Below are positions 1-15,304 of a stretch of DNA of 31,098 nucleotides, piece by piece. Positions within the stretch are counted from its first letter, which is position 1; each line of letters starts with the position of its first letter. Source of the stretch: a virus; IMG/VR virus record IMGVR_UViG_3300047476_000933, positions 1 to 31,098 of that record; one strand, written 5' to 3'. The translations under genes and the position numbers were made by a program. The notes under the pieces were generated by a model that was given only the letters and a program-made list of their open reading frames with translations, did no database searches and had not been told where the DNA came from.

Positions 1-413
1 TCATTGCCTCCTCGGCCACCATAGCCGCCACTATCACCAACAAACCCGCCTCCGGCACCTCCAGCTGAAACTCCGCCGCCTTTTCCGCCAAAACCGCAAA
101 CGATATTGGCATTAATAAAATAACTATCTGTTCCGTTGTTGCCCGCAGAATTAACGGCACCGCCAAGGCCGCCAGTGCCAACTACTACTGTATAACTCTC
201 GCCAGGCACTACTGCAATATGATTTTTATATCCTAAGCCACCTCCGCCACCGCCTGCTCCATCAGCACCACCTCCGCCACCGCCTGCACCTACAGCAACA
301 ACACAAACTGTTTGAACACCATCTGGACAAACCCATGTATAGGTACCTGGAAAAGAGTAAACTGCTTCTCCTCTAGGTTTTAATAGCCATGGGTTGTGAA
401 GTGTAATGCTCAT
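1..413 (-). CDS. glycine-rich tail adhesin-like protein, partial (C-terminus beyond left edge)
   Basis: An open frame starts with ATG at 413 and runs off the left edge, giving about 137 residues. It begins MSITLHNPWLLKPRGEA. Near residues 19-45 it has a short beta segment (FPGTYTWVCPDGVQTV) followed by poly-glycine runs, the layout of the glycine-rich domain common in phage tail and fibre tip proteins. The rest is dense in Gly with scattered aromatic residues, recalling the glycine-rich loops of T-even gp38 adhesins; that comparison is an inference. The start codon overlaps the stop of the collagen-like gene upstream (ATGA at 410-413), which fixes the start and implies translational coupling. 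It ends the fibre operon seen here and is likely a tip or receptor-binding component. Confidence 0.8.
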   Translation of the reverse strand, partial: MSITLHNPWLLKPRGEAVYSFPGTYTWVCPDGVQTVCVVAVGAGGGGGGADGAGGGGGGLGYKNHIAVVPGESYTVVVGTGGLGGAVNSAGNNGTDSYFINANIVCGFGGKGGGVSAGGAGGGFVGDSGGYGGRGGN

Positions 414-1909
414 GTAAACGAATAATAGAAAGTAACTTTTAATCCTGCCGCTCCTGTGCCAGCAGAGTCAATGTCGATACCTATTTCAACATCGTCAGCA
501 ATACTTGTTGTAGCCAGTGTAGTAGGAGTTGCTGCGGTAACACTAGTCTTTTCGGACTGGTCAATTGATAATTTGTTTGCTCCAAGAATACTTGTACCGT
601 TTACATTTATATCAACTGTAACAAGCCCAGAAGACGAAGCAGTATTTAACGATGCCCTAGGTACTTGCGTTAAAGTCATTGCAAAAGGCGATCTAAATGT
701 TATCTTGGATGCACCAGTTGTTAACGGAGCAATTTCGTCGGATACTGCTACTATAAATGATATAGACGAATTTAATCCCCGGCTTCCCACATAACCTACA
801 GATCCAGTATATCCTACAGATCCTCTGGATCCAGTATATCCTACATTACCTTGTACACCCTGATTGCCGAGCTCAACCCACTGAGTCGAATTTCCGTCAT
901 TTAGATAATAATAGTTAATGCCTGTAGCTGAATCAACCCATAGATCTCCAACACTTGCTGATGTAGGAGCTATATTTGAGTATGTGTACTTTAAGGAACC
1001 TTCACTACCTGTATAACCTTCACTACCGGCATATCCTGTAGCGCCAATACTTCCGGTGTATCCAGTTGTACCTGCTGAACCAGCATAACCAATACCAGTT
1101 GATCCGGTGTATCCAGTTGTACCCGACGATCCAGTGTATCCAGTTGTACCCGAGGATCCAGTGTATCCATTGTTACCTGCTGATCCAGTGTATCCATTGT
1201 TACCTGCACTACCGGTATAACCTGTTGCTGATCCAGCAGACGCTACATTTGATAGGAAAGATACAGTATTTGAGTTAAAATCGATATTACCCGAGGTTGT
1301 ACTAAACGATACGCCACCGGTATTAGATGCTGATATTACTGCCCCGCCGAGATCAATTGAGTTGCTGGCCAGGTACAATGTACCAAACCTCATAGTCGGA
1401 GAGCCAATGTTAATTGTATTACTTGTTGTTGGTAATATCGAGTTATTAACTGTTAATGTACCAGCTACATATATATTCCCTGCTAATCCGGCACCTGCTG
1501 CCGAACCACTGTATCCTGTAACTTCTGAGGCTGAACTACCGGTGTAGCCAATTGATCCTACACTTCCAGTGTATCCAGGAGTACCCAAGCTACCGGTATA
1601 CCCTGCTCCCGCTGAACCGGTATATCCATTTGTACCTGCACTGCCTGTATATCCTGTGCCAGCACTTCCAGTGTATCCATTTGCACCGGCACTACCTGTG
1701 TATCCATTTGTACCTGCTGAACCGGTATATCCTGTGCCACCACCTGCACCGCTAGAATTATAAGCCAGTGAATTCCAGTTTGAAACACCGTCACCGACTT
1801 TTAATTTGCCGGTGTCGGTTTCTAAAGCCAATTCTCCTTCGGCTAAAATAGGGTTTGCTGCCGACCATTGAGCAGCAGTACCTCGTCTAAGTTGAATTTG
1901 AACAGCCAT
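410..1909 (-). CDS. collagen-like tail fibre protein with Mtd-type N-terminal domain
   Basis: This 499-residue protein has four visible parts. Residues 1-50 (IQLRRGTAAQW, then GELALETDTGKLKVGDG) match the small N-terminal domain of phage major tropism determinants and many fibre proteins. Residues about 55-135 and 235-305 are Gly-X-Y repeats built on GYTGSAG. Between them is a beta segment typical of marine phage structural proteins (RFGTLYLASN). A small domain at about 305-355 has GDLWVDSATG. Residues about 381-499 form a beta-rich C-terminal domain (ITFRSPFAMTL, then DDVEIGIDID) of a kind found at the ends of many phage fibre proteins, likely receptor binding. A T4-type late promoter box lies 22 bases upstream of the ATG. 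The product is probably a trimeric host-recognition fibre. Confidence 0.88.
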   Translation of the reverse strand: MAVQIQLRRGTAAQWSAANPILAEGELALETDTGKLKVGDGVSNWNSLAYNSSGAGGGTGYTGSAGTNGYTGSAGANGYTGSAGTGYTGSAGTNGYTGSAGAGYTGSLGTPGYTGSVGSIGYTGSSASEVTGYSGSAAGAGLAGNIYVAGTLTVNNSILPTTSNTINIGSPTMRFGTLYLASNSIDLGGAVISASNTGGVSFSTTSGNIDFNSNTVSFLSNVASAGSATGYTGSAGNNGYTGSAGNNGYTGSSGTTGYTGSSGTTGYTGSTGIGYAGSAGTTGYTGSIGATGYAGSEGYTGSEGSLKYTYSNIAPTSASVGDLWVDSATGINYYYLNDGNSTQWVELGNQGVQGNVGYTGSRGSVGYTGSVGYVGSRGLNSSISFIVAVSDEIAPLTTGASKITFRSPFAMTLTQVPRASLNTASSSGLVTVDINVNGTSILGANKLSIDQSEKTSVTAATPTTLATTSIADDVEIGIDIDSAGTGAAGLKVTFYYSFT

Positions 1910-1930
1910 GTTTAATTTTTCCGTATTCTA

Positions 1931-1938
1931 TATTTATA
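1931..1938 (-). promoter_or_regulatory. T4-type late promoter box (TATAAATA)
   Basis: The minus strand reads TATAAATA, an exact match to the T4 late promoter -10 element, 21 bases before the ATG at 1909. The expected start of transcription is near 1924-1925, leaving a leader of about 16 bases. The box contains the TAA stop of the upstream fibre gene. It is the only exact copy on the minus strand that I found. Confidence 0.65.
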
Positions 1939-2710
1939 TGGGTCCACCACCGTCAATTCCTGTAACTCCACCGTATACTGATGTGGGCGATCCTCCATCG
2001 ACATTAGTTAAACCTACACCACCGGTACCAGCACTACCTGTGTAACCTATTGCGCCCGTTGTACCAGCACTACCTGTGTACCCATCAACACCAGCACTAC
2101 CTGTATATCCGGCTCCAGTACTACCTGTGTAACCTATCCCTGCACTTCCGGTGTACCCATCAGCACCAGCACTACCTGTATATCCGGCTCCAGTACTACC
2201 TGTGTAACCTATTTCACCTTTGATGCCTGTGGCACCAGAAAGATCAGTTATATATGTATATACTGTTCCGTCCCAAAGATATAATTTAGCAGTATCGGTG
2301 TCATCAGTACTGCCAGTGTCAATAATAGCAAATTGTCCAGATGTAATACCTGTTGGGCTAGTATCAGCTAATAATAATGCTACACTAGCATAAGTTTTTG
2401 CTATGGTAAAACCTAATCCTGTATCACCTTTTTGTCCACGACTTCCGGTATAACCTTCACTGCCTGTGTAACCAATAGAACCTTGGCTTCCAGTATAACC
2501 TTCGCTGCCTGTGTAACCCACACCTTCACTACCGGTGTAACCTATGCTACCAGTATAACCAACAGAACCTTGGCTACCTACATAGCCAGGAGGACCCACT
2601 GGGATGTAAACCTGTCCTACCCATTTTATTCCATCCCAGGTATATGTTACTCCACTAGGACTTGTAAAACTGTCGCCAATTTGCGGTGAATCTGGAAAAT
2701 CTAATGCCAT
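1934..2710 (-). CDS. collagen-like tail fibre protein, short form
   Basis: The protein has 258 residues. The N-terminal 35 residues (MALDFPDSPQIGDSF, then GVTYTWDGIKWVG) are a compact module common at the start of T4-like cyanophage and pelagiphage fibre proteins. Gly-X-Y repeats with the GYTGS core fill residues about 45-95 and 165-235. A small insert between them (GQFAIIDTGSTDDTDTAKLYLWDG) resembles trimerisation or capping inserts. The C-terminus is short and Gly/Asp-rich (NVDGGSPTS, GIDGGGPI), so a globular receptor domain seems absent. No Shine-Dalgarno sequence is visible before the ATG. It lies between two other proteins with the same collagen motif and is likely an accessory fibre or connector. 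Confidence 0.82.
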   Translation of the reverse strand: MALDFPDSPQIGDSFTSPSGVTYTWDGIKWVGQVYIPVGPPGYVGSQGSVGYTGSIGYTGSEGVGYTGSEGYTGSQGSIGYTGSEGYTGSRGQKGDTGLGFTIAKTYASVALLLADTSPTGITSGQFAIIDTGSTDDTDTAKLYLWDGTVYTYITDLSGATGIKGEIGYTGSTGAGYTGSAGADGYTGSAGIGYTGSTGAGYTGSAGVDGYTGSAGTTGAIGYTGSAGTGGVGLTNVDGGSPTSVYGGVTGIDGGGPI

Positions 2711-2732
2711 AATTGATATTTATTGCTAGGGT

Positions 2733-4844
<2,112 letters not shown>

Positions 4845-4854
4845 TGCTTATACC

Positions 4855-7800
4855 TTAAACAGTTTTCATAAATTCAACAGCATCAAATGTATAGAAGCTG
4901 GCATCACCTTGGACACTGGTATAGTACAAGGTTAGTTTATCTCCGTCGCTTAGTCTTACATCAACTATACCGTCTGGATACGACTCGTTGCTCTTAATCC
5001 TTGCTCCGACGCTGAAGCTAACATTAGGCGGCGTGTAACCATCTTTAACCATCATGACATCAAACAGCTCCATATAAGAATAGTAGTCGTTGTGTAGTCT
5101 TACAGTGATTTTTACTGCTACTACATCTGCAGAACTTGCCTTCCAAATTTCGTGTTCTGTGCTATAAGCACTACGAACATAATATGGATTACCTTTAACA
5201 GTCTTAGTAGCACCAGAAATTGTAATTTGGCTGTTACCAACAGCCGGCAAACTTACCACACCTGTATTGGCTACAGTAACTTCAGCAGACTCATTCTTGA
5301 TTCTGTCTACTAGATTTGTACCATAGGTAACTTCTTTAGTAGTGGTGTTATAGTACAGAACACTGGCTGTTGTTGCATCGCCCCTCACCGGAGCAACATA
5401 GAAACTACTATCCTGATCGGCAATACCATTTAATTCAACCCCTGTGGCATTGATTATAATGGTATTGTTGCCTTGGTATTGGTGGCCTGCTGCATAACCA
5501 ATGGCAACTGATTCAGTGCCTTGGTTAACTTTACCAGCTTGATGACCAATAGCTGTTGCTCTTACACCTTGGTCAAAATTGCCAGCTTCGGTGCCTAGAG
5601 CAGTAGCATATACTCCCTGGCGTTGACCACCAGAATTAGTACCAACTGCAACCCCGTGTTCGCCTTGATCTTCATTACCTGCTATATAGCCTATAGCAAC
5701 TGCTTTATTGCCTTGTCTAATTTCTCCAGCAAAGCTACCTAAGCCAACTTGGAAATTGGCACCGGGCTCTTGTTCAAAGTCCCAGAATTGACCAATGTAT
5801 GTACCTTGTCCGTCGTCACCAGACTGGTAGGCTCCTTTTTGTACATAGACATAACCTGCAGGTTCAAATCTCCAGGTAACGGTGTTAGCAGTAATACTAG
5901 TAGCAGCGGGGCTAGTAATATTACCAGTCCAGGCTGTAGTTTGATAAGTGCTATCACTAAATGCAATATTGCCAACACCAGCTAGAGAACCAACTGTTAT
6001 TGGTCCTGCGCTAGGATCCAAGAACTGTAAATTAGTTGGAGTACTAATTATTAAGTTACCAGGTAAAGTTAATTCACCATTGACACCAAACGACCAAACA
6101 TTGTTGTTAGCAGTTATATAAACTGGAGGATTTGATCCGTTTGATACCTGTACATGACTATTTTCACCGCCCAAGAACAATATTGATCCGCTATTGTCCT
6201 GTGGGCCGCCGGCTCTAATATGAATATGATTTGGAGCAGTAGGATCAATGACCAAGTACGAATCACCAAACACATTAGTATCTGGACGAAGTTCCATGGT
6301 TGAATATCCGTAGCCATCACCGGAACTGTTAGCAACAAAGTTTATAGCACCGTTACCGCTTGTAAGATTACCTGCTAGAGTCAAAATGCCGTCACTGCCA
6401 TCAAACTTCCAACGATACGCACCTTCTTGTGGAGCAATATATAAGGAAGAAGCAGTTGAGGTATTCACATAGGTTTGGAGTTCAATATCTCCTTGAATGC
6501 CTGTGTAATTATTTGCAACATTACCAAGAACTACTCTTAAAAAGCTAGTGTTTAATTGGTCACCTATGTCTACATTTACAGGGCCTGCTAAAAGTCCAAC
6601 ACCATTTTCCTGGAATACGCCCTGTAACATTCCCCCTTTGATATTTCCCGGTACTGTTAGTTCACCATAACTATTAAAGTTCCACGATGAACCGCCTACA
6701 TTAATAACTACATCCGAATTGGCACTAGCGATCGAGACATTTGTTGTTCCGTTTTCAATTCTGTTTGGTATTCCGGCATCAACAGGACCCCAGGAACCAT
6801 CACCTAACAGTGCATTTGCAGGATTACCATCTAGGTTAATAGAGGCAATGTTACCAATACTGGCAATGTTAGCAAGTTGAATATTGGAAATATTCCTGCC
6901 GTCACCAATTAGGTATTGGGCAGAAATAGAACTAAATCCACTAATGCTTGGTGCTGGACTTGCATCTGCGCCCTGAATACCAGTGTTAACAAACAATATA
7001 CCAGTACTAACTGTATCTGTAGCAGTGATATTAGCTGTTGTTAAAGTATTTGTATCCGAAGTGTATGTTAAATCAACATCAGCTCTCACATACTGTCCTG
7101 TTGATCTCTGTTCAACAAATGTAGGATAGAAGACTGTGGTTAATCCATTGGTGTCAGTAATATCAACTAGTCCAGTAAATGCAATGTTGGCCAAACTGTT
7201 TGATAAGGAATCAATATTGCTTTGTAGATTAGCATCAGCAAGTGCTCGAGCATTGGCTTCATCGGTTATATAAGAGGTAGTAAATGCAGTAGTCTGTACA
7301 GTAGCATCTGGAAAGTATAGACTACCGTCTGTGTCAAATAGCCAAGATTTTAGTGTAGTCAGCGCATTAGTGTTAATAACAACTGAATTTGATGATGTAA
7401 TAGCAACATTTCCTGTAGTTGATGCTATTTCTGCGCCCTGGATATAAATGTTTTCACCAGTTGATACGGTAGGAAATGTTACAAAGGGATTTAATCCGCC
7501 AATTAATACCACCTCTGCGTTACCGTTAGTTAATCTGTCAAGAGTGCCAGTAAATGCAACATTGGCCAAACTGTTTGATAAGGAATCAATATTGCTTTGT
7601 AAATTACTGTCGGCAGAAACTCGAGCATTGGCCTCATCACTGACTGCCTGTATTCTTGCATTTACTTCAGCAGTAATATTGCTTTGTAAACTTGCATCGC
7701 TTGCAATTCGGGCATTGGCTTCATCGCTAACCGCTTGAACTCTTGCGTTTACTTCAGCTGTAATGTTACTTTGTAGTGAATTGTCAGCGGCCACACGAGC

Positions 7801-9489
7801 GTTAGCTTCATCACTAACTGCTTGGATACGAGCAGTAATTTCTGAACTAATGTTTGCTTGTAAATTAGCCTCGGCTGCGGTTGCACGGTTAATTTCAGCT
7901 GTTAAATTAGATCCGGTAGCACTACTGATATTACCAAGTGCAGACAACAAGTTACCATCAGCACTTTGGAAGGCTGTAACAATTTCAGACAAACTATCTA
8001 ATGCGGCCGGATCTGTATTGTTAAGTATGTTGTTTATCTGGCTCTGTAAATTAGATGTTGCAGTACCGCGAAGATTGGCTTCGTTGCTTACAGCGGTATT
8101 AACATAGGTAATATTGGCAAAATCAGGACCATTGGTAAACTGATTTAGATTAGTTGGTACACCAGATAGGTCACCGTATGCGCCACTTGTAGCCACATTG
8201 GCAAAGTTTGGTTTGTTTAAAACATTAGCCCATTGTATGTCACTATTTGATAAATCAATTGGTGCACTGGCCAATATTGTTCCCGAAGGCGATTCACTAA
8301 CAGATATGTTCCCGACATGTATTGATCCCGGTCCAACATATAACGAGTGCCAGCGGTTAGCTGAGTTACCCAAAAATCTGATATTATCAACATCTGGTAT
8401 AATATTAGAATTAAAGGCCAAGAAATCGGGTCTATTGATTAAGTCTGGGTAGCTACCAGATTTGGCTACTGTTGCCAAACTATTATCTAAAGCGGTAATG
8501 TTTGATTGTAGTGATGTGTCAGCACTGGCCCTGGTGTTTGCTTCTGCTGTAATATTGCTCTGTAAGCTAGTATCGGCAGCAATACGAGCATTAGCCTCGT
8601 CACTGACTGCCTGTATCCTTGCATTTACTTCTGCTGTAATGTTACTTTGCAACGATGTATCTGCGCTGGTACGAGCACTGGCTTCACTGTTGATCGCTGT
8701 AGTACGGGCATTAGTTTCAGCTGTGATATTGCTCTGTAGACTATTGTCTGCGTCAATACGAGCGTTTGCTTCTGCTGTAATGTTACTATTAATATCAGCT
8801 ACAGTAGATACTACTTCAGTAAAACTATCAAGTATATTAGCATCAAAGTTTGAAAGAATGTTGTTAATTTGATTTTGAAGGTTAGCATCGGCTGCACTAC
8901 GAACGCTGGCTTCGGTGGCAATATTGCTCTGTAAACTGGTGTCGGCAGCAATACGGGCATTGGCTTCGTTATTGATGTTAGTCTGTAATATTGTTTCGGC
9001 AGCAAAGGCTCTGGCAACTTCAGAATTCAAATTTGATTGTACTGCTGTTATCAATGTTTTTAGGTTAGCAGCCAATGCAGGATCGTTATCTAAGCTAACG
9101 GATATTTCTTCAAGAGTGTTTAGTCCCGGTGATGCATTTCCAACTAGCTGAGTCAATGATGCAGTGACATTTGCAGCCAATGCAGAAACATTAGAACTAA
9201 CACTTGTAATTAAATCTGTAATAGTAGAAGTAGTATTTGCAACTGTTGCGGCAACAATTGGTCCTAGGTTTCCTTCTAGGTAACCAGTGATCCAGGTCCT
9301 GGTTGTTGGTTCAGTAGGTACAATAACACCGCCAGGTGTAACGCCATCGTGAACACGAAGTGTTAATAGAGTAGTATCAAGAGTTATTTCTCCAATTGGC
9401 CCAATATAACTGCTGTTTACTTGTGTATTTCCACGCTTGAGCAGTATCTGTCTAGCGTCTAAGTCAATAGTTTGGTTATTAATAGTCAT
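4855..9489 (-). CDS. very long tail fibre protein with coiled-coil and YadA-head-like repeats
   Basis: The protein has 1544 residues. Residues about 10-60 (RQILLKRGNTQVN, then GEITLDTTLLTLRVHDG) are an Mtd-like N-terminal module. Residues about 100-350 and 510-680 are long alpha-helical heptad repeats of the type EANARIAADTSLQSNIT, predicted trimeric coiled coil. Several repeats around residues 375, 470 and 790 contain beta modules (NSANRWHSLYVG). Residues about 1245-1350 carry five copies of an AVAIGxxAG-type repeat (KAVAIGYIAGN, ATALGTEAGN, ESVAIGYAAGH), the signature of YadA/trimeric autotransporter head beta-rolls. The last 110 residues look globular. The start overlaps the previous stop (TAATG) and has GGAAG 6 bases upstream. 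It is likely the main host-contact fibre; no S74 chaperone tail is seen. Confidence 0.87.
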   Translation of the reverse strand: MTINNQTIDLDARQILLKRGNTQVNSSYIGPIGEITLDTTLLTLRVHDGVTPGGVIVPTEPTTRTWITGYLEGNLGPIVAATVANTTSTITDLITSVSSNVSALAANVTASLTQLVGNASPGLNTLEEISVSLDNDPALAANLKTLITAVQSNLNSEVARAFAAETILQTNINNEANARIAADTSLQSNIATEASVRSAADANLQNQINNILSNFDANILDSFTEVVSTVADINSNITAEANARIDADNSLQSNITAETNARTTAINSEASARTSADTSLQSNITAEVNARIQAVSDEANARIAADTSLQSNITAEANTRASADTSLQSNITALDNSLATVAKSGSYPDLINRPDFLAFNSNIIPDVDNIRFLGNSANRWHSLYVGPGSIHVGNISVSESPSGTILASAPIDLSNSDIQWANVLNKPNFANVATSGAYGDLSGVPTNLNQFTNGPDFANITYVNTAVSNEANLRGTATSNLQSQINNILNNTDPAALDSLSEIVTAFQSADGNLLSALGNISSATGSNLTAEINRATAAEANLQANISSEITARIQAVSDEANARVAADNSLQSNITAEVNARVQAVSDEANARIASDASLQSNITAEVNARIQAVSDEANARVSADSNLQSNIDSLSNSLANVAFTGTLDRLTNGNAEVVLIGGLNPFVTFPTVSTGENIYIQGAEIASTTGNVAITSSNSVVINTNALTTLKSWLFDTDGSLYFPDATVQTTAFTTSYITDEANARALADANLQSNIDSLSNSLANIAFTGLVDITDTNGLTTVFYPTFVEQRSTGQYVRADVDLTYTSDTNTLTTANITATDTVSTGILFVNTGIQGADASPAPSISGFSSISAQYLIGDGRNISNIQLANIASIGNIASINLDGNPANALLGDGSWGPVDAGIPNRIENGTTNVSIASANSDVVINVGGSSWNFNSYGELTVPGNIKGGMLQGVFQENGVGLLAGPVNVDIGDQLNTSFLRVVLGNVANNYTGIQGDIELQTYVNTSTASSLYIAPQEGAYRWKFDGSDGILTLAGNLTSGNGAINFVANSSGDGYGYSTMELRPDTNVFGDSYLVIDPTAPNHIHIRAGGPQDNSGSILFLGGENSHVQVSNGSNPPVYITANNNVWSFGVNGELTLPGNLIISTPTNLQFLDPSAGPITVGSLAGVGNIAFSDSTYQTTAWTGNITSPAATSITANTVTWRFEPAGYVYVQKGAYQSGDDGQGTYIGQFWDFEQEPGANFQVGLGSFAGEIRQGNKAVAIGYIAGNEDQGEHGVAVGTNSGGQRQGVYATALGTEAGNFDQGVRATAIGHQAGKVNQGTESVAIGYAAGHQYQGNNTIIINATGVELNGIADQDSSFYVAPVRGDATTASVLYYNTTTKEVTYGTNLVDRIKNESAEVTVANTGVVSLPAVGNSQITISGATKTVKGNPYYVRSAYSTEHEIWKASSADVVAVKITVRLHNDYYSYMELFDVMMVKDGYTPPNVSFSVGARIKSNESYPDGIVDVRLSDGDKLTLYYTSVQGDASFYTFDAVEFMKTV

Positions 9490-9989
9490 TATATACTTCC
9501 ACCGTCAAGTGTTGTAAAATCATCTGTGCTGGTTTCGCCTTCTTGTGGAGGCATTTCGGAATAATAGCCGGGCATAACAATTAGGTCAATTGGTACATGA
9601 TAGTTATCATCAATATATGCAGGCCTTTCAACATTAGTGTCTAAATTGATCACCCTGAAAGTTAGCTTGTAGTTTCTCTGATTCAGGCCATTGGCATGTG
9701 CTTTGGTAATAACAAATCTTGCTAGTCCTTTAGTAGCATCCACTCTTTCAACAGCGTAAGATCTTACTGTTAATTGATTTACAGGATCTTGTATGTCAAC
9801 TTGTACCGCATATGGTGTAATGTTTACGCCTTTTTGGTCTTGGTTGCGGACCCGTACTTGTATAGCGTTATCTATCCCCTGATAAATTGTCACAGGTCTG
9901 GCATACATTTCTCTGTTCCTTGTTGTAAAAATAGTGCGGTCCCAAAATCGTAGGTCCACTGTGTTCGGATATAAATAGATTGTTATCAT
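9489..9989 (-). CDS. beta-rich virion structural protein upstream of the fibres
   Basis: I choose the ATG at 9989 (MITIYLYPNTVDLRFWD), giving 166 residues; an upstream in-frame ATG at 10034 would add 15 residues that do not look conserved and would overlap the divergent gene. The central part (IQVRVRNQDQKGVNITPYAV, then KGLARFVITKAHANGL) reads like an Ig-like or BppU-N-type baseplate domain, in which polymer-like beta strands are followed by a KG turn; this resemblance is weak. The stop overlaps the start of the 1544-aa fibre by one base (TAATG), implying coupled translation. It is probably a baseplate or fibre-attachment protein. Confidence 0.7.
   Translation of the reverse strand: MITIYLYPNTVDLRFWDRTIFTTRNREMYARPVTIYQGIDNAIQVRVRNQDQKGVNITPYAVQVDIQDPVNQLTVRSYAVERVDATKGLARFVITKAHANGLNQRNYKLTFRVINLDTNVERPAYIDDNYHVPIDLIVMPGYYSEMPPQEGETSTDDFTTLDGGSI
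9970..9977 (+). promoter_or_regulatory. T4-type late promoter box (TATAAATA), plus strand
   Basis: This is an exact TATAAATA on the plus strand, 31 bases before the GTG start of the only plus-strand gene. The box lies inside codons 5 to 7 of the divergently read structural gene, so both signals share the same bases. It is the only exact copy on the plus strand that I found, and its position upstream of the single plus-strand gene argues that it is used. Confidence 0.6.
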
Positions 9990-10008
9990 TATTTTAATAT
10001 TTACCACT

Positions 10009-10380
10009 GTGGAAGAAATCGAACAGTTGCTCAAAAGATACCCCTTTATAACATACCTAATTTATGGGGGCAACGAATATATAGGTATAATACAAAACTC
10101 AGACGAGCAAATTACCACTATCTACGATTTTGGTAGCCTTCGGGTGCCCGAACAAAAGAAAAGATTCCTAGAATTAGGCGAACAGTGGTGGTGGGAAAGC
10201 AATAGGATAATTCCTATTAATGTTTTCCTAAAGCAAGAATGGGCTGAATTCAAGTTTTGCGTTAAAACTATGAACAGCAAAGATGTTGATATCCGTATGG
10301 GACCACAACTTAATCTTAAAGAAATGGCGGCTAAAAGACGTAAACGCCGCTCAATAACCTTAGTTCGTAAGATCAACTAA
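10009..10380 (+). CDS. conserved hypothetical protein, lone plus-strand gene
   Basis: The frame opens with GTG at 10009 and codes 123 residues (MEEIEQLLKRYPFITYLIYG at the start). No named domain is recognised. The body is beta-rich with a WWW cluster (residues 59-61) and a highly basic tail (AAKRRKRRSITLVRKIN) that could bind nucleic acid. No clear Shine-Dalgarno sequence precedes the GTG, and an in-frame stop lies at 9976, so the start cannot be far upstream. A late-type TATAAATA box is 31 bases upstream. The 3' end overlaps the minus-strand Pol III-like gene by 21 bases tail to tail. The general character resembles proteins I associate with T4-like marine phages, but the function is unknown. 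Confidence 0.75.
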   Translation: MEEIEQLLKRYPFITYLIYGGNEYIGIIQNSDEQITTIYDFGSLRVPEQKKRFLELGEQWWWESNRIIPINVFLKQEWAEFKFCVKTMNSKDVDIRMGPQLNLKEMAAKRRKRRSITLVRKIN

Positions 10381-10974
10381 GTTCATGTTAACTACCACAA
10401 GGTGTGCGTAGCCAACACTGTGACTCTTTTTAAAGTAGTAGCCATTATCGGCAGGTTTTTCCCAGACACTCTCAGCAACTTTGCTCCAAGGTAGACCTAT
10501 TAAGTGACGCTTGGCCGGTCTAATTACTGCCAACAACATGGCCAGTCTAGGAATACTATTAACTGCTTCGGGCATCTTAATTAGTGTGTCATAATGATTG
10601 CCGATGTGTATCATCTGACTGCAGAACTCTGGTTCGTAAAGTCTGTGCCAGGGCGGATCTCTAGAGAGTAGCTCATTTAAATGTTGCTCACTTCTAACCT
10701 GCTGATATAACCCAACATTAAGAAAATCGAGCTTGATATAACCACGATCTTCAGCTTGTCGATAATCTACTCCAGCTCGACCATTGAAAGGGTCCTGCGG
10801 TATATCAGTTACATAAATTCCAGTGTTGTGTGCAGTCGATTGCCCTTGGTCGTTGATAATACTGGCACCAATGTGTCGGATCTTTGACAGTATTTGCTGT
10901 CGGTCAGCAAAGTCGATGTCTACATCGCTGGTAAACTTTATAGACCTGCTGTTGTTAATATCTGTCGAGCCCAT
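10360..10974 (-). CDS. small protein with DNA polymerase III alpha-like catalytic motifs
   Basis: The protein has 204 residues; the ATG at 10974 follows GGAG at a good distance. Residues 16-25 read SDVDIDFADR, very close to the PDxDxDF motif that holds two catalytic aspartates in bacterial C-family polymerases (D401 and D403 in E. coli DnaE). Residues 49-53 (HNTGI) resemble the following HAAGV motif, and residues 75-85 (EDRGYIKLDFL) match the E-x-x-G-x-x-K-x-DFLGL motif that holds the third aspartate (D83 here). The order is as in DnaE, but the spacing is far shorter, and PHP, fingers and beta-binding domains are absent. The C-terminal 100 residues are not recognised. It could be a miniature polymerase relative, an inactive mimic or a coincidence of motifs. 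Confidence 0.75.
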   Translation of the reverse strand: MGSTDINNSRSIKFTSDVDIDFADRQQILSKIRHIGASIINDQGQSTAHNTGIYVTDIPQDPFNGRAGVDYRQAEDRGYIKLDFLNVGLYQQVRSEQHLNELLSRDPPWHRLYEPEFCSQMIHIGNHYDTLIKMPEAVNSIPRLAMLLAVIRPAKRHLIGLPWSKVAESVWEKPADNGYYFKKSHSVGYAHLVVVNMNLVDLTN

Positions 10975-11342
10975 TTTTGATCTCCACTTTCGTGTTTAAA
11001 TCTTGATTTCCAGAAATCTGGATCAATCCAACGAATGATTAGAGCTACTTGGTCTTCTGTCAAGTTGCTTAGAAACTCTACCCCAGAATCACAGTTAAAA
11101 ATAATCCAAGGACTAATCCTGCCAGTGCTAACATGATAACAAATTCTATTGCTGTTACCGTATCTGAAGTAATCACGGATACCATTTTTAAGATCTGGGT
11201 TGTCTTCAACATAGCCGTTAATTTCATTGATGCCTCTTTCTAGAGCATCCTGTACAGATTCTGTTCGTAAGTAAGTAAACAACCACTCTTCATAGAGCTT
11301 GTCTGATGTCCAGTAGTCTAGTTTTTTATTATTCCTTAACAA
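10938..11342 (-). pseudogene. 3' half of a frameshifted zinc-finger phage gene
   Basis: This 134-residue open frame starts LRNNKKLDYWTSDKLYEEW and ends DPDFWKSRFKHESG plus a short tail. Read upstream past its ATG in the same frame, the sequence continues YYTAFVKFGRYCQDIK and then CVNFVSFTNWLL, joining smoothly to LRNNKKLDYW. The upstream zinc-finger frame reads correctly as far as YDDF and then goes out of frame. Together the halves form one protein of about 240 residues, as I remember for the zinc-finger family in T4-like cyanophages. The annotated ATG is thus probably internal. The 3' end overlaps the next gene by 37 bases. Confidence 0.72.
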
Positions 11343-11662
11343 CCAATTAGTAAACGATACAAAGTTAACACATTTGATATCTTGGCAGTATCGACCAAAT
11401 TTAACAAAGGCAGTATAGTAACAAAATCGTCGTAGGTTTTTTCTTTGCTACTTTGAGTCATCTTATAGAACTCCAAGTAGGACATAAATCCCCACTGTAC
11501 ACCTTTTTCTTTTTCTTGTTGGTATCTTCTTTTCTTTTCGCAGAGATGGTTTACCAAAGTTGTTTCTTTAGTAAATCCTTTATTACAGTACTTACAAACA
11601 TACTTTGATTCTGTTACTGGCATAGTGTTAGCTTGGTATGCTTTTAGTATGTCTAAAATCAT
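11336..11662 (-). pseudogene. 5' half of a frameshifted zinc-finger phage gene
   Basis: This 108-residue frame carries a single C2HC-type zinc finger at residues 21-41 (C23, C26, H39, C41 in YVCKYCNKGF, then TLVNHLCEKKRR) followed by GVQWGFMSYLEFYKMTQ, a sequence I recognise from a conserved T4-like cyanophage family. After YDDF (around 11427) the frame turns into unrelated residues and stops. One extra T in the coding run TTTT (plus-strand A-run 11423-11426) restores the family sequence. The start overlaps the previous stop (ATGA at 11659-11662); M14 is an alternative start nearer the finger. The cause could be a sequencing or assembly indel in a homopolymer or a true mutation. Confidence 0.75.
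11423..11426 (-). other. likely frameshift site (one T missing from a homopolymer)
   Basis: The coding strand reads GAC GAT TTT GTT AC here. Adding one T gives GAT TTT TGT TAC TAT ACT GCC, that is D-F-C-Y-Y-T-A, which continues FVKFGRYC. The coding strand has no X-XXY-YYZ slippery heptamer at this point, so programmed -1 shifting is not favoured. Confidence 0.7.
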
Positions 11663-12117
11663 AGTTCTGCTTTGATTTTCTTATCGTCCCACCCAAGTTC
11701 TCGGGCCATTCGTTGTAGTTGTTCAAAGGTATTAAGCTCAGCCATTAGCTCAACTTCATCTCTTTTTAAATGAGGAAACTGGCTTTCAATAAACTTTTGT
11801 TTTCTGCGATCCCCAGTCTTTTTTGTTTTTAACCAATAGTGTCTTTTAGATCCTAGTCCAGGACTAACTGTAGTACAAATAAGCCATTGTAGCTTAGGAT
11901 GCCTGCCTAGGTCAAAAAAGTTGATATTTACACGATCGTTGATTGCACGAATATACCATTCTTGTAGTTCAGGACTGCCTTCAACATTAGCACCCCACTT
12001 GAGCATGAGATATGTGCTGAACTTTTTACGCTCTTCGTCTGTAAGACTGTCATAGAACTTTCGATCCTTAAGATCAAAAGCTCGCATCTCTGTGGCAATG
12101 TCTAGTTTATTACTCAT
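11659..12117 (-). CDS. conserved phage protein, possibly gp62-like clamp-loader subunit
   Basis: The protein has 152 residues and begins MSNKLDIATEMRAFDLKDRK. The middle (FSTYLMLKWGANVEGSPELQ, then HPKLQWLICTTVSPGLG and RHYWLK) has the general layout of the small clamp-loader subunit gp62 of T4-like phages, where a short helical protein ends in a KR-x-x-W/Y-x-K segment, but I see no decisive motif and give this only as a possibility. The ATG lies exactly 6 bases after a TACAAT box with TTGACT 17 bases further up, and no Shine-Dalgarno sequence is visible, so the message may be leaderless. The stop overlaps the zinc-finger gene (ATGA). Confidence 0.8.
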   Translation of the reverse strand: MSNKLDIATEMRAFDLKDRKFYDSLTDEERKKFSTYLMLKWGANVEGSPELQEWYIRAINDRVNINFFDLGRHPKLQWLICTTVSPGLGSKRHYWLKTKKTGDRRKQKFIESQFPHLKRDEVELMAELNTFEQLQRMARELGWDDKKIKAEL

Positions 12118-12123
12118 TGATAT

Positions 12124-12152
12124 ATTGTATTACCATGCCTTGCCAAAGTCAA
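12124..12152 (-). promoter_or_regulatory. sigma-70-type promoter TTGACT-17-TACAAT, start on the ATG
   Basis: The minus strand has TTGACT (12152-12147), a 17-base spacer, TACAAT (12129-12124), 6 bases and then the ATG at 12117. The expected first transcribed base is the A of the ATG. The -35 lies in the last codons of the upstream gene. The same layout occurs at 15250 and 22315. Confidence 0.65.
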
Positions 12153-12639
12153 CTACTTCGCTGACACGACTAATCTCTTTGACAAAATAAACACACAAGG
12201 GTTTTGCAGAGTCCGAATCAACTGGTACCGCTAACATCTGCCCGGGCTTGAGTTTAGGAAAATACCATTTAACATCTTGATAGATGTCTACGATTTCAAC
12301 AGAATGAAACTCAGGCCTAAAACTGCTAATAGGATTAAAACAAAAAGCACTAAAGCCACGATCATTAATACTAGTCAAAGGTACCACTTCAAGATCGCCT
12401 AAGTCGCTCTCTCCAATTAATAGTTGCCAATCCACTGGCATCTTAACTGTCCAATTGCCTATCTTGAGTACCAAGGCCGGGCTATTAAAACTTTCCAGAA
12501 AAATCAACGGTATAAAAAAATAATCGGGATTTTTTGGGTCACTGTTATCTAGCACACAAAAACGAAGGTCCTCAATTTCTTCAGGAATGTCGTTCATGTC
12601 GTAAGCTCTGTTATTATCTAAATTTAATATTCTTGACAT
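12130..12639 (-). CDS. conserved T4-like phage protein of unknown function
   Basis: The protein has 169 residues. Segments such as PLIFLESFNSPALVL, MPVDWQLLIGESDLGDLEVV, NDRGFSAFCFNPISSF and VKWYFPKLKPGQMLAVPV look strongly constrained and match a family I associate with marine T4-like phages without a known role. There is no signal peptide or membrane segment; the composition suggests a compact beta-rich soluble protein. It starts 2 bases after the stop of uvsW, so it belongs to the uvsW transcript. A TATAAT abuts the ATG directly but has no -35 at a fitting distance, so I do not call a promoter. The last codons contain the -35 of the next promoter. Confidence 0.8.
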   Translation of the reverse strand: MSRILNLDNNRAYDMNDIPEEIEDLRFCVLDNSDPKNPDYFFIPLIFLESFNSPALVLKIGNWTVKMPVDWQLLIGESDLGDLEVVPLTSINDRGFSAFCFNPISSFRPEFHSVEIVDIYQDVKWYFPKLKPGQMLAVPVDSDSAKPLCVYFVKEISRVSEVVDFGKAW

Positions 12640-12640
12640 A

Positions 12641-14101
12641 TTATAGGTATTCTACTTTCTCTATGGTAAAGGGGTAGTTAGCCTCTTTATAAAAATTCTT
12701 TCTCTGTGTCAGGTGTCTTTTGGCGAACTTGCACGACGAGGTAATATCCCAGATTTGGACAAAGTCCTTATCCTCTGCCTTACGGATTCCCCTTCCAATA
12801 CTTTGGATAACCCTAACAAAGCTCTTTCCGGGCTCCAGAAGAACCAAATTAAAAATCCTAGGGATATTAATACCCACAGCGGCCACACCGTAAGTCGCCA
12901 CAATAATCTTGTCACTAGATTCCGCCACTTCGTCATAATGCTCCTGTCTTGTTGTTCCTTTAGTGGCGCCGCTGACAAAAACTGCACGGTCACCGAGTCT
13001 TTCAACTAGAGCTTGGCCAGCGGCTACACGATCTACAAGGATCAGTGTATTTCCAGTGTCAACGATTCTTCGAACCATTTCTGCTATATGGTCTAAACGC
13101 TTACCGGACTCTAATAGAAATTTTAATTCACTTTGATAGTTACTGTACTCAGCATGATCAATTAACTGTAAAATATTGACATGACATTGAGCCAGCACGC
13201 CTTGCTCCTGTAATTCTCTAGCACTGAGTTTGCCGATTACGCGGCCAAGACTGCAATATAGAGCCATAAACTCATAACGCTCTTTGGGTATTGTTCCTGT
13301 CAGTCCCCAACGAATAGGAATTTGAGCCATTGGTCCTGTTAGCAAAGTTTTTAGTGCATCGGCTTTGGCCATGTGTACTTCGTCAACGATGACACAAACT
13401 ACACCTTCAATAAACTCTTGTATTGTGATCTCTGCTTCGTGGTTACGAGTATTCTTCAGCAGTACATTAAGACTTTGCCAAGTACAAATTGTATGCTGTC
13501 GATTAAATTCTTTGCGGTCACCATAGAAAACGCCAACATCCAGCCCTAAATTGACATAGTCTTTTTCAGTTTGTGTAACCAAACTCTTGTTAGGCACAAT
13601 AACAATACTACGACCGTATTCGCTAACTGAATTACTTAGAGCCGCAGTCATCAAAGTTTTGCCTGCGCCAGTGGCTACTTCTTGTATGCACTGTGGGTTC
13701 TCGAGAAACCTATTAATAACTTCAACTTGATAGTTACGCAACATAATTGGTTGCCCTGCCATTGGATGACCTTTAGGCCAAAGTGTGTCTTTAAAGGTAT
13801 CTTCTTCTATTTCGTTAAAGTCAAATTTAGTATTGTAGTCTCTAGTATCGTCGAGCTGTATGTCATAGCCTCTTTCTGCCAGATACTCTAGTATTTCGGG
13901 TAGCAGGTTGATGTAGGTACTACCGCTGAGCTGAAAGAAACTTACCTTTCCGTCCCAACGGCCCAGTCTGACCGCAGGCAAATATCTTGCACCTGGAATT
14001 TCAAACTTGTACTTGTTAACTAGCTCTTTACGATCAACTAGTTCAAGTCCTTTAATTTTTACATTAACTTCGTCGTTAATTTCTAAGATACATTCTCTCA
14101 T
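12641..14101 (-). CDS. uvsW: UvsW-type superfamily 2 DNA helicase
   Basis: The 486-residue protein has the SF2 set: Walker A TGAGKT at 144-149, Walker B DEVH at 240-243, motif III LTGT at 267-270 and motif VI QSIGRGIRK at about 433-441. The N-terminal 110 residues (ELVNKYKFEIPGARY, then RLGRWDGKVSFF) match the substrate-recognition domain of T4 UvsW, and the length is close to the T4 protein. UvsW unwinds R-loops and branched DNA, drives fork regression and Holliday-junction migration, and in T4 helps switch from origin-based to recombination-based replication. The start overlaps the previous stop (ATGA at 14098-14101), coupling it to the HARP-like protein. Confidence 0.95.
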   Translation of the reverse strand: MRECILEINDEVNVKIKGLELVDRKELVNKYKFEIPGARYLPAVRLGRWDGKVSFFQLSGSTYINLLPEILEYLAERGYDIQLDDTRDYNTKFDFNEIEEDTFKDTLWPKGHPMAGQPIMLRNYQVEVINRFLENPQCIQEVATGAGKTLMTAALSNSVSEYGRSIVIVPNKSLVTQTEKDYVNLGLDVGVFYGDRKEFNRQHTICTWQSLNVLLKNTRNHEAEITIQEFIEGVVCVIVDEVHMAKADALKTLLTGPMAQIPIRWGLTGTIPKERYEFMALYCSLGRVIGKLSARELQEQGVLAQCHVNILQLIDHAEYSNYQSELKFLLESGKRLDHIAEMVRRIVDTGNTLILVDRVAAGQALVERLGDRAVFVSGATKGTTRQEHYDEVAESSDKIIVATYGVAAVGINIPRIFNLVLLEPGKSFVRVIQSIGRGIRKAEDKDFVQIWDITSSCKFAKRHLTQRKNFYKEANYPFTIEKVEYL

Positions 14102-15243
14102 GTTGTTGGTTGTTGGTATTTTATCATTACATCTGTACAGTAAACAACTTTCTTAGAGTGCTGTACAATGTGTTGTTTCTTTGGGCCTATCATCAAGGAG
14201 GTCATGGTAACCAACATTGGTATATCTGTTTCCCAACTGTGCATCCAATGGTTTAAGTATACACATTTTGCGTTTGGTGGCAACTTGAGCGTCCTACTTT
14301 TAATAGGTATTTCAACTAGTTCGTCACTGGTAAAGTAATCTTTGAGTACCGGCAACATGCGACCGGTGTTGGCATCGATATTTTCAAATACATATATGGG
14401 CCATCGATTTGTTGTTTCTGCATATTTGACTATGTCCTTAAAAGAGCCTTCTTCCTTTAAAGGTATGTGTATTTCTTTTAGTGTCAGCAACATAGTTTGA
14501 TTTTGATTATAATTGCTTTCAACCCAAGCACGAATATCATCGCTGATACAGTAGCCTAAAATATTGCTATGGTCAACAAGATTAACTAGATTGTCGTCGT
14601 TAAACCCGTTAAGGTTATTTTCTATATATTCAATTAAACTAGGTTCGCCGTTGCGTATAACGAGACCTGTATCTGTTTTTTCAAGTACTATACGATAGTT
14701 ACCTTGTTTGATCTCTTTGACTTGTTCAATTAAGTCATCGATAGTGGGATCTACTTCAAATTGATATTTATCCGCAATGGATCTGAGCCAAAGCAAACGA
14801 GGCTCTGTTACAGACATAATCCATGCCTTTTGGTCCCTATCAAATTTCATTTGCCCAGGTATGTTTTTGCCGCTGTCTTTTATTTCGTCAATCATTTTAG
14901 ATTCGTAAGGAAATCTAAGATATACTTGACCGTCAACAATCTTGATAGATTTGCTACGATCAACATAACGAATAGGCAAACGGAAATGCCCATTGTCCTC
15001 GTGGATACCAATGTCAATGTCGTATTTGGCGAATTGTCTTTTGTATTTTACCACTAGTTTGTGTGCTAGTAGAGCCTGTTTGTCTGTGTAGCCTACACCC
15101 CTATTTGTTTGCTCAGCAAGATTTGCCACAATTTGCACATCGTATCTGGCTAAACTAAAAGTCATCGGCTTGCCCTTGATACTGATGTAACCAGCAAGAA
15201 TTTCAATATAGTCCTCAATGTAGGGTATAGTCTTCTTTTGCAT
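14098..15243 (-). CDS. HARP-like domain protein coupled to UvsW
   Basis: This 381-residue protein lies directly upstream of uvsW and overlaps it by 4 bases. Residues about 103-166 (VDGQVYLRFPYESKMIDEIK, then PGQMKFDRDQKAW and LWLRSIADKYQF) have the pattern of the HARP domain of SMARCAL1-type annealing helicases: a beta strand with F-P/Y, a helix, then R/K-F-D-x-x-x-K-x-W. The N-terminal 95 residues and the C-terminal 200 are unrecognised; no nucleotide-binding loop is present. I infer a DNA-structure-binding partner of UvsW. The ATG is 6 bases after a TACACT box with TTGACT 17 bases up, and no Shine-Dalgarno sequence is seen, so translation may be leaderless. Confidence 0.82.
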   Translation of the reverse strand: MQKKTIPYIEDYIEILAGYISIKGKPMTFSLARYDVQIVANLAEQTNRGVGYTDKQALLAHKLVVKYKRQFAKYDIDIGIHEDNGHFRLPIRYVDRSKSIKIVDGQVYLRFPYESKMIDEIKDSGKNIPGQMKFDRDQKAWIMSVTEPRLLWLRSIADKYQFEVDPTIDDLIEQVKEIKQGNYRIVLEKTDTGLVIRNGEPSLIEYIENNLNGFNDDNLVNLVDHSNILGYCISDDIRAWVESNYNQNQTMLLTLKEIHIPLKEEGSFKDIVKYAETTNRWPIYVFENIDANTGRMLPVLKDYFTSDELVEIPIKSRTLKLPPNAKCVYLNHWMHSWETDIPMLVTMTSLMIGPKKQHIVQHSKKVVYCTDVMIKYQQPTT

Positions 15244-15249
15244 ACAGTA

Positions 15250-15278
15250 AGTGTAACATATTCTTTTTAAAAAGTCAA
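15250..15278 (-). promoter_or_regulatory. sigma-70-type promoter TTGACT-17-TACACT, start on the ATG
   Basis: The minus strand has TTGACT (15278-15273), a 17-base spacer, TACACT (15255-15250), 6 bases and the ATG at 15243. The -35 overlaps the end of the U-tract of the terminator that closes the upstream gene run, so one transcript ends where the next begins. It would drive the HARP-like gene and uvsW. Confidence 0.65.
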
Positions 15279-15304
15279 AAAAATACCCAGAGCACTCTGG
15301 GTAT
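15277..15304 (-). terminator. rho-independent terminator
   Basis: A perfect 10-base inverted repeat (ATACCCAGAG and CTCTGGGTAT, 15283-15304) is followed on the minus strand by six Ts. It ends the run of small genes from 15334 upward. A second perfect hairpin lies just before it at 15308-15325. Confidence 0.85.

Follow-up and report, generated by a model that had tools for sequence, protein, structure and literature searches.

The phage protein family phrog_11058 (PHROGs v4) is carried by T4-like jumbo phages and is annotated as of unknown function. Named members are XAI94077.1 of Pseudomonas phage vB_Pa-PAC2, GAP32_280 of Cronobacter phage GAP32 and gene 147 of Salicola phage SCTP-2, each of which is a single open reading frame (ORF). 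According to PMC7824862, 'group 2.2' jumbo phages have a DNA polymerase III alpha that is minimal and split, and several group 2 phages have orthologues of the T4 protein gp59; the terms 'zinc finger', 'ZnF' and 'C2H2' are absent from the main text of that paper. Here we describe a copy of phrog_11058 in a linear IMG/VR virus record of 31,098 bases, referred to as the window. This copy resembles the named members in the sequence of both its parts, in its finger spacing and in its UvsW and DNA polymerase III alpha-like neighbours, but unlike them it runs out of frame past residue 81.

A phrog_11058 gene in two reading frames

The first of the two frames (11662-11336, minus strand) begins with an ATG and encodes 108 amino acids. 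The second (11447-10938, minus strand) overlaps it, comprises 169 codons from stop to stop and contains YYTAFVKFGRYCQDIK and SFTNWLLRNNKKLDYW, the residues quoted in the original prediction. When compared with the 239-position phrog_11058 profile, the N part matched positions 9-78 (E 1e-15) and the C part positions 80-239 (E 2.4e-33). Since these stretches of the profile are consecutive, both frames belong to a single gene, as had been predicted from the sequence alone. The same prediction held that the first frame ends in unrelated residues, which is borne out by the 27 such residues that follow the homologous stretch up to 11336, and it placed a run of four Ts at the join, which we confirmed on the minus strand (11426-11423). 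The window copy thus covers the full-length profile and has the finger, but it lacks a single uninterrupted frame and is classed as a broken copy (Table 1).

Table 1. Features of the phrog_11058 locus in the window
Feature	Position	Strand	Basis or remark
Disrupted phrog_11058 gene (zinc finger and helical body), both parts	10938..11662	-	Consecutive profile matches; relatives have one frame
N part, homologous residues M1-V81, C-x2-C-x12-H-x-C finger	11420..11662	-	tblastn of residues 1-81; alignment A2
Junction, ten bases of L002 and L003 absent	11419..11422	-	DNA alignment
C part, homologous Tyr-85 to stop, -1 frame, open from 11447	10938..11420	-	Relatives, alignment
AAATTTG, only X-XXY-YYZ heptamer in the overlap	11396..11402	-	Conserved Lys-Phe codons; probably chance
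Upstream neighbour, phrog_11758, annotated unknown function, 4-base overlap with gene start	11659..12117	-	Profile match
Downstream neighbour, phrog_11778, minimal DNA polymerase III alpha-like, 204 aa	10360..10974	-	Profile match; PMC7824862
UvsW-like DNA helicase	12641..14101	-	PHROG DNA helicase families; order as in PAC2 and GAP32

The four ligand residues of the finger are kept in the window and are invariant in alignments A2 and A4, and an S-P-W motif is invariant in the diverse alignment A4. As a classical C2H2 finger the motif scored below the curated cut-offs (PF12171, 20.3 bits against 22.6; PF00096, 19.7 against 25.2). The body of the protein is all-helical in a model of the closest relative, L002 (mean pLDDT 90.4). 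Foldseek returned no match in the PDB at E 0.001 or better, every row of the VIA structure comparison had Z <5, and a sequence search of the PDB at E 0.01 or better returned finger matches only; nothing in NCBIfam came close to its cut-off.

The gene order in the window is UvsW, two small genes, the phrog_11058 gene, the DNA polymerase III alpha-like gene, which overlaps the end of the C part, and an ORF on the opposite strand. This order is nearly matched in PAC2 and GAP32, where primase and primase-helicase genes come next; in Phosso the polymerase gene lies a few genes further on, and in SCTP-2 UvsW and small genes are found upstream. The opposite-strand ORF (10009-10380, plus strand) overlaps the end of the polymerase gene by 21 bases, and an opposite-strand gene overlaps the same polymerase end in PAC2, GAP32 and Phosso by 17, 17 and 4 bases, respectively. 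Further along, the minus strand at 410-9489 carries large tail-fibre-like genes, in which collagen-like GYTGS repeats occur, and encodes a 1544-aa protein whose coiled-coil-like segments are repeated. The 152-aa product of the upstream neighbour scored 22.9 (P 0.0092) against the C half of phrog_11058 in a profile comparison, which may reflect chance or a distant relation.

The ten-base deletion at the junction

Relatives were sought from each part in viral_contigs, yielding 48 for the N part and, for the C part, the best 80 of 183 candidate loci. L002 is the closest among these (94% and 90% amino acid identity over the N and C parts, respectively), and both it and L003 (71% amino acid identity) read through in one frame. 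Aligned to the DNA of these two relatives, the window shows an uninterrupted ten-base gap following the G at 11422, such that the distance from the start codon to the Tyr-85 codon is 252 nt in L002 and L003 and 242 in the window. The placement of the deletion is ambiguous by a 2-base TT repeat at the junction. Of the 692 ways to delete ten bases from the L002 gene, 95 would have at least such a repeat, and it is therefore no evidence for slippage.

The split had been attributed to a single missing T, an interpretation that we reject given a gap of ten bases against both relatives, which also rules out a homopolymer slip as the lesion. Ten is a multiple of three plus one, so that a single added T appears to mend the gene; it does restore the frame, but three codons stay missing and the protein is not restored. 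The lost codons belong to the conserved S-P-Y-Y segment and encode residues 82-84 of L002, including the nearly invariant Ser-83, which lie at the turn that links helix 77-82 to helix 86-98 in the L002 model (mean pLDDT as above). An apparent one-base homopolymer slip can hence be a longer deletion, and the DNA of a relative settles which of the two it is.

Over all 4,022 bases of L002 the alignment with the window is colinear and 84.8% identical, with three gaps, namely 3 bases (14118), 1 base in an intergenic position (12641) and the ten at the junction. Generally poor contig quality is thus unsupported within the 4 kb that L002 covers. A chimeric join at the junction was also rejected, as identity does not jump there (0.907 on one side and 0.86 on the other, with values ranging over 0.75-0.96).

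Both parts are conserved: dN/dS against L002 was low in the N part (0.039/0.50) as well as in the C part (0.053/1.14), and the two parts keep 21/21 invariant and 39/42 nearly invariant residues of alignment A2. The deleted Ser-83 is one of the three exceptions; the others are position 151, where L002 likewise has Ile, and position 181 (Val). Relaxed selection after the split is unsupported, since polarised changes in the C part at codon positions 1 and 2 versus 3 numbered 11:16 on the window line and 9:22 on the L002 line (Fisher p 0.41). The conserved residues and low dN/dS indicate that the lesion is either young or artificial.

Rarity of the split and its explanation

The comparison set comprised 127 loci other than the window, with L003 and L082 on one contig and L086, L097 and L114 cut by a contig end. 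Residues 70-100 lie in one frame in 127/127, and the segment 76-92 is 17 residues long in every one of them, in 60 distinct forms; none (0/127) is split at the window's junction. Among named phages, at least 80% of the intact protein was covered at one place in 61/61 matching records, and the gene was in a single piece in 60/60 records among the matches listed, which are mostly jumbo phage genomes of 284-490 kb with a few shorter ones. The expectation of a zinc-finger gene with unsplit relatives in T4-like phages is therefore upheld, and homologues split at the same point, named in advance as the finding that would speak against a broken gene, were absent from the 127 loci and the listed records alike.

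One other broken copy was detected. L056 (IMGVR_UViG_3300047560_000018) has lost 26 bases within 430-600; it resembles the window in that a deletion breaks the frame of the same gene, and differs in the length of the deletion, in its location inside the zinc finger and in its lineage. Frame-breaking deletions of the phrog_11058 gene thus do occur, independently, in such contigs. L018 was rejected as a broken copy, its stop being upstream of its own start. In L014, L015 and L017 the finger is not preceded by an ATG, and a non-ATG start is likely.

The junction pattern and two 28-base flanking words had no match in viral_contigs, a search from which records very near the window were possibly excluded, and the intact junction pattern matched L002 alone. 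These empty searches indicate that the window's own species is not sampled twice in viral_contigs. In named phage DNA the gene had no nucleotide match, and the region 9400-15300 gave helicase-region matches only, in 10 records.

A deletion relative to the relatives, two conserved parts and the lack of any homologue split there are what we observe. On this basis, we propose that a fresh 10-base deletion, real in the phage population, broke the gene and created a loss-of-function allele, a reading to which we assign a probability of roughly 65%. The deletion would remove the codons of the inter-helix turn and shift the 160 codons that follow into the -1 frame. Translation would then stop at 11336, and the predicted 108-residue product would consist of the finger, the first helices and the unrelated tail, having lost the helical body, such that no working full-length protein is likely to be made. 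Ten missing bases are unlike a homopolymer error, and a short-read assembly graph, if one underlies this record, would require reads that carry the junction. Both points favour a recent deletion that truly exists in at least some of the phage population over an assembly or consensus error.

Such an error, in which the phage gene is intact and ten bases were lost while the contig was built, is possible but less probable. It would account for two parts that look fully conserved in a family never split at this point among the 127 loci or the listed named phages, and it is favoured by the retention of the gene in all relatives examined and its single copy in 11 larger records, which make a loss unlikely. 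However, in addition to the length of the gap and the need for junction reads, nothing else breaks a frame of the contig within the 4 kb it has in common with L002, and identity continues across the junction unchanged. A paralogue serving as backup is unsupported within the 11 larger records searched, each of which has one strong phrog_11058 match, with a weak second one in SCTP-2 only (E 0.001).

It is very improbable that the split is functional, with the C part produced by -1 ribosomal frameshifting or by a restart at a TTG at 11342: the C part does sit in the -1 frame, the overlap does contain the heptamer AAATTTG (11402-11396) and runs of four identical bases (11441-11438 and 11426-11423), and the TTG, the first possible start of a C frame (11447-10938) that has no Met codon and no ATG, does adjoin the stop of the first frame, but the heptamer consists of conserved Lys-Phe codons about 18 bases past the junction, the 60 nt that follow the T run are predicted to fold weakly (-5.8 kcal/mol), the TTG lies some 26 residues into the conserved part and has no clear ribosome site, and the lack of any split in the 127 loci means that the kept split and slip site of programmed -1 frameshifting are not seen.

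Comparison with the T4 helicase loader gp59

T4 gp59 (PDB 1c1k, PF08993/PF08994) is, like phrog_11058, all-helical, of similar length and set among replication functions; unlike gp59, phrog_11058 has no Pfam gp59 match and has an added zinc finger. The family may comprise the replicative helicase loader of T4-like jumbo phages, as a distant gp59-type protein that gained a finger and replaces gp59, but we regard this as doubtful because every score is weak, including by the comparison's own controls. The C half of the L002 model matched 1c1k weakly (Z 3.6, rmsd 4.1, 98 residues), and 1c1k was absent from the list for a second model (L126). A profile comparison of phrog_11058 with gp59 aligned the same region in the same register as the structure match, with an offset of about 30 residues (P 0.14 at first, 0.011 with more diverse sequences and 0.0065 in the reverse direction), and 1 of 100 column shuffles scored higher. 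However, against that profile two of four unrelated control families scored almost as high, at 22.9 (P 0.0092) and 23.1 (P 0.025) compared with 23.7, and the gp59 idea therefore remains only a lead.

Other searches bear on the same lead. A gp59 model was among the best named BFVD rows for both structure models (E 0.59 and 1.1) and VIA listed the phage lambda loader P for each of them (Z 3.6 and 4.2), the two models being of homologous proteins and so not independent. Neither part of the window gene nor L002 matched Pfam T4_Gp59_N or T4_Gp59_C at E 0.1. In 11 records chosen for carrying phrog_11058, Pfam gp59 gave nothing over the cut-off (T4 control 3.0e-54) and a gp59 profile search gave 0 matches (T4 control 2.6e-99). 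T4, in turn, has gp59 and no match to phrog_11058.

The frame break itself is ordinary, being that of a known family's copy whether the deletion is real or artificial. If the deletion is real, it raises the question of whether phages can do without a gene that all relatives examined have kept, and if phrog_11058 were indeed a helicase loader, the copy in the window would be a naturally occurring loss-of-function allele of a core gene of replication. The phrog_11058 gene is a core gene in a replication and recombination cluster of jumbo phages, and its role is worth testing.
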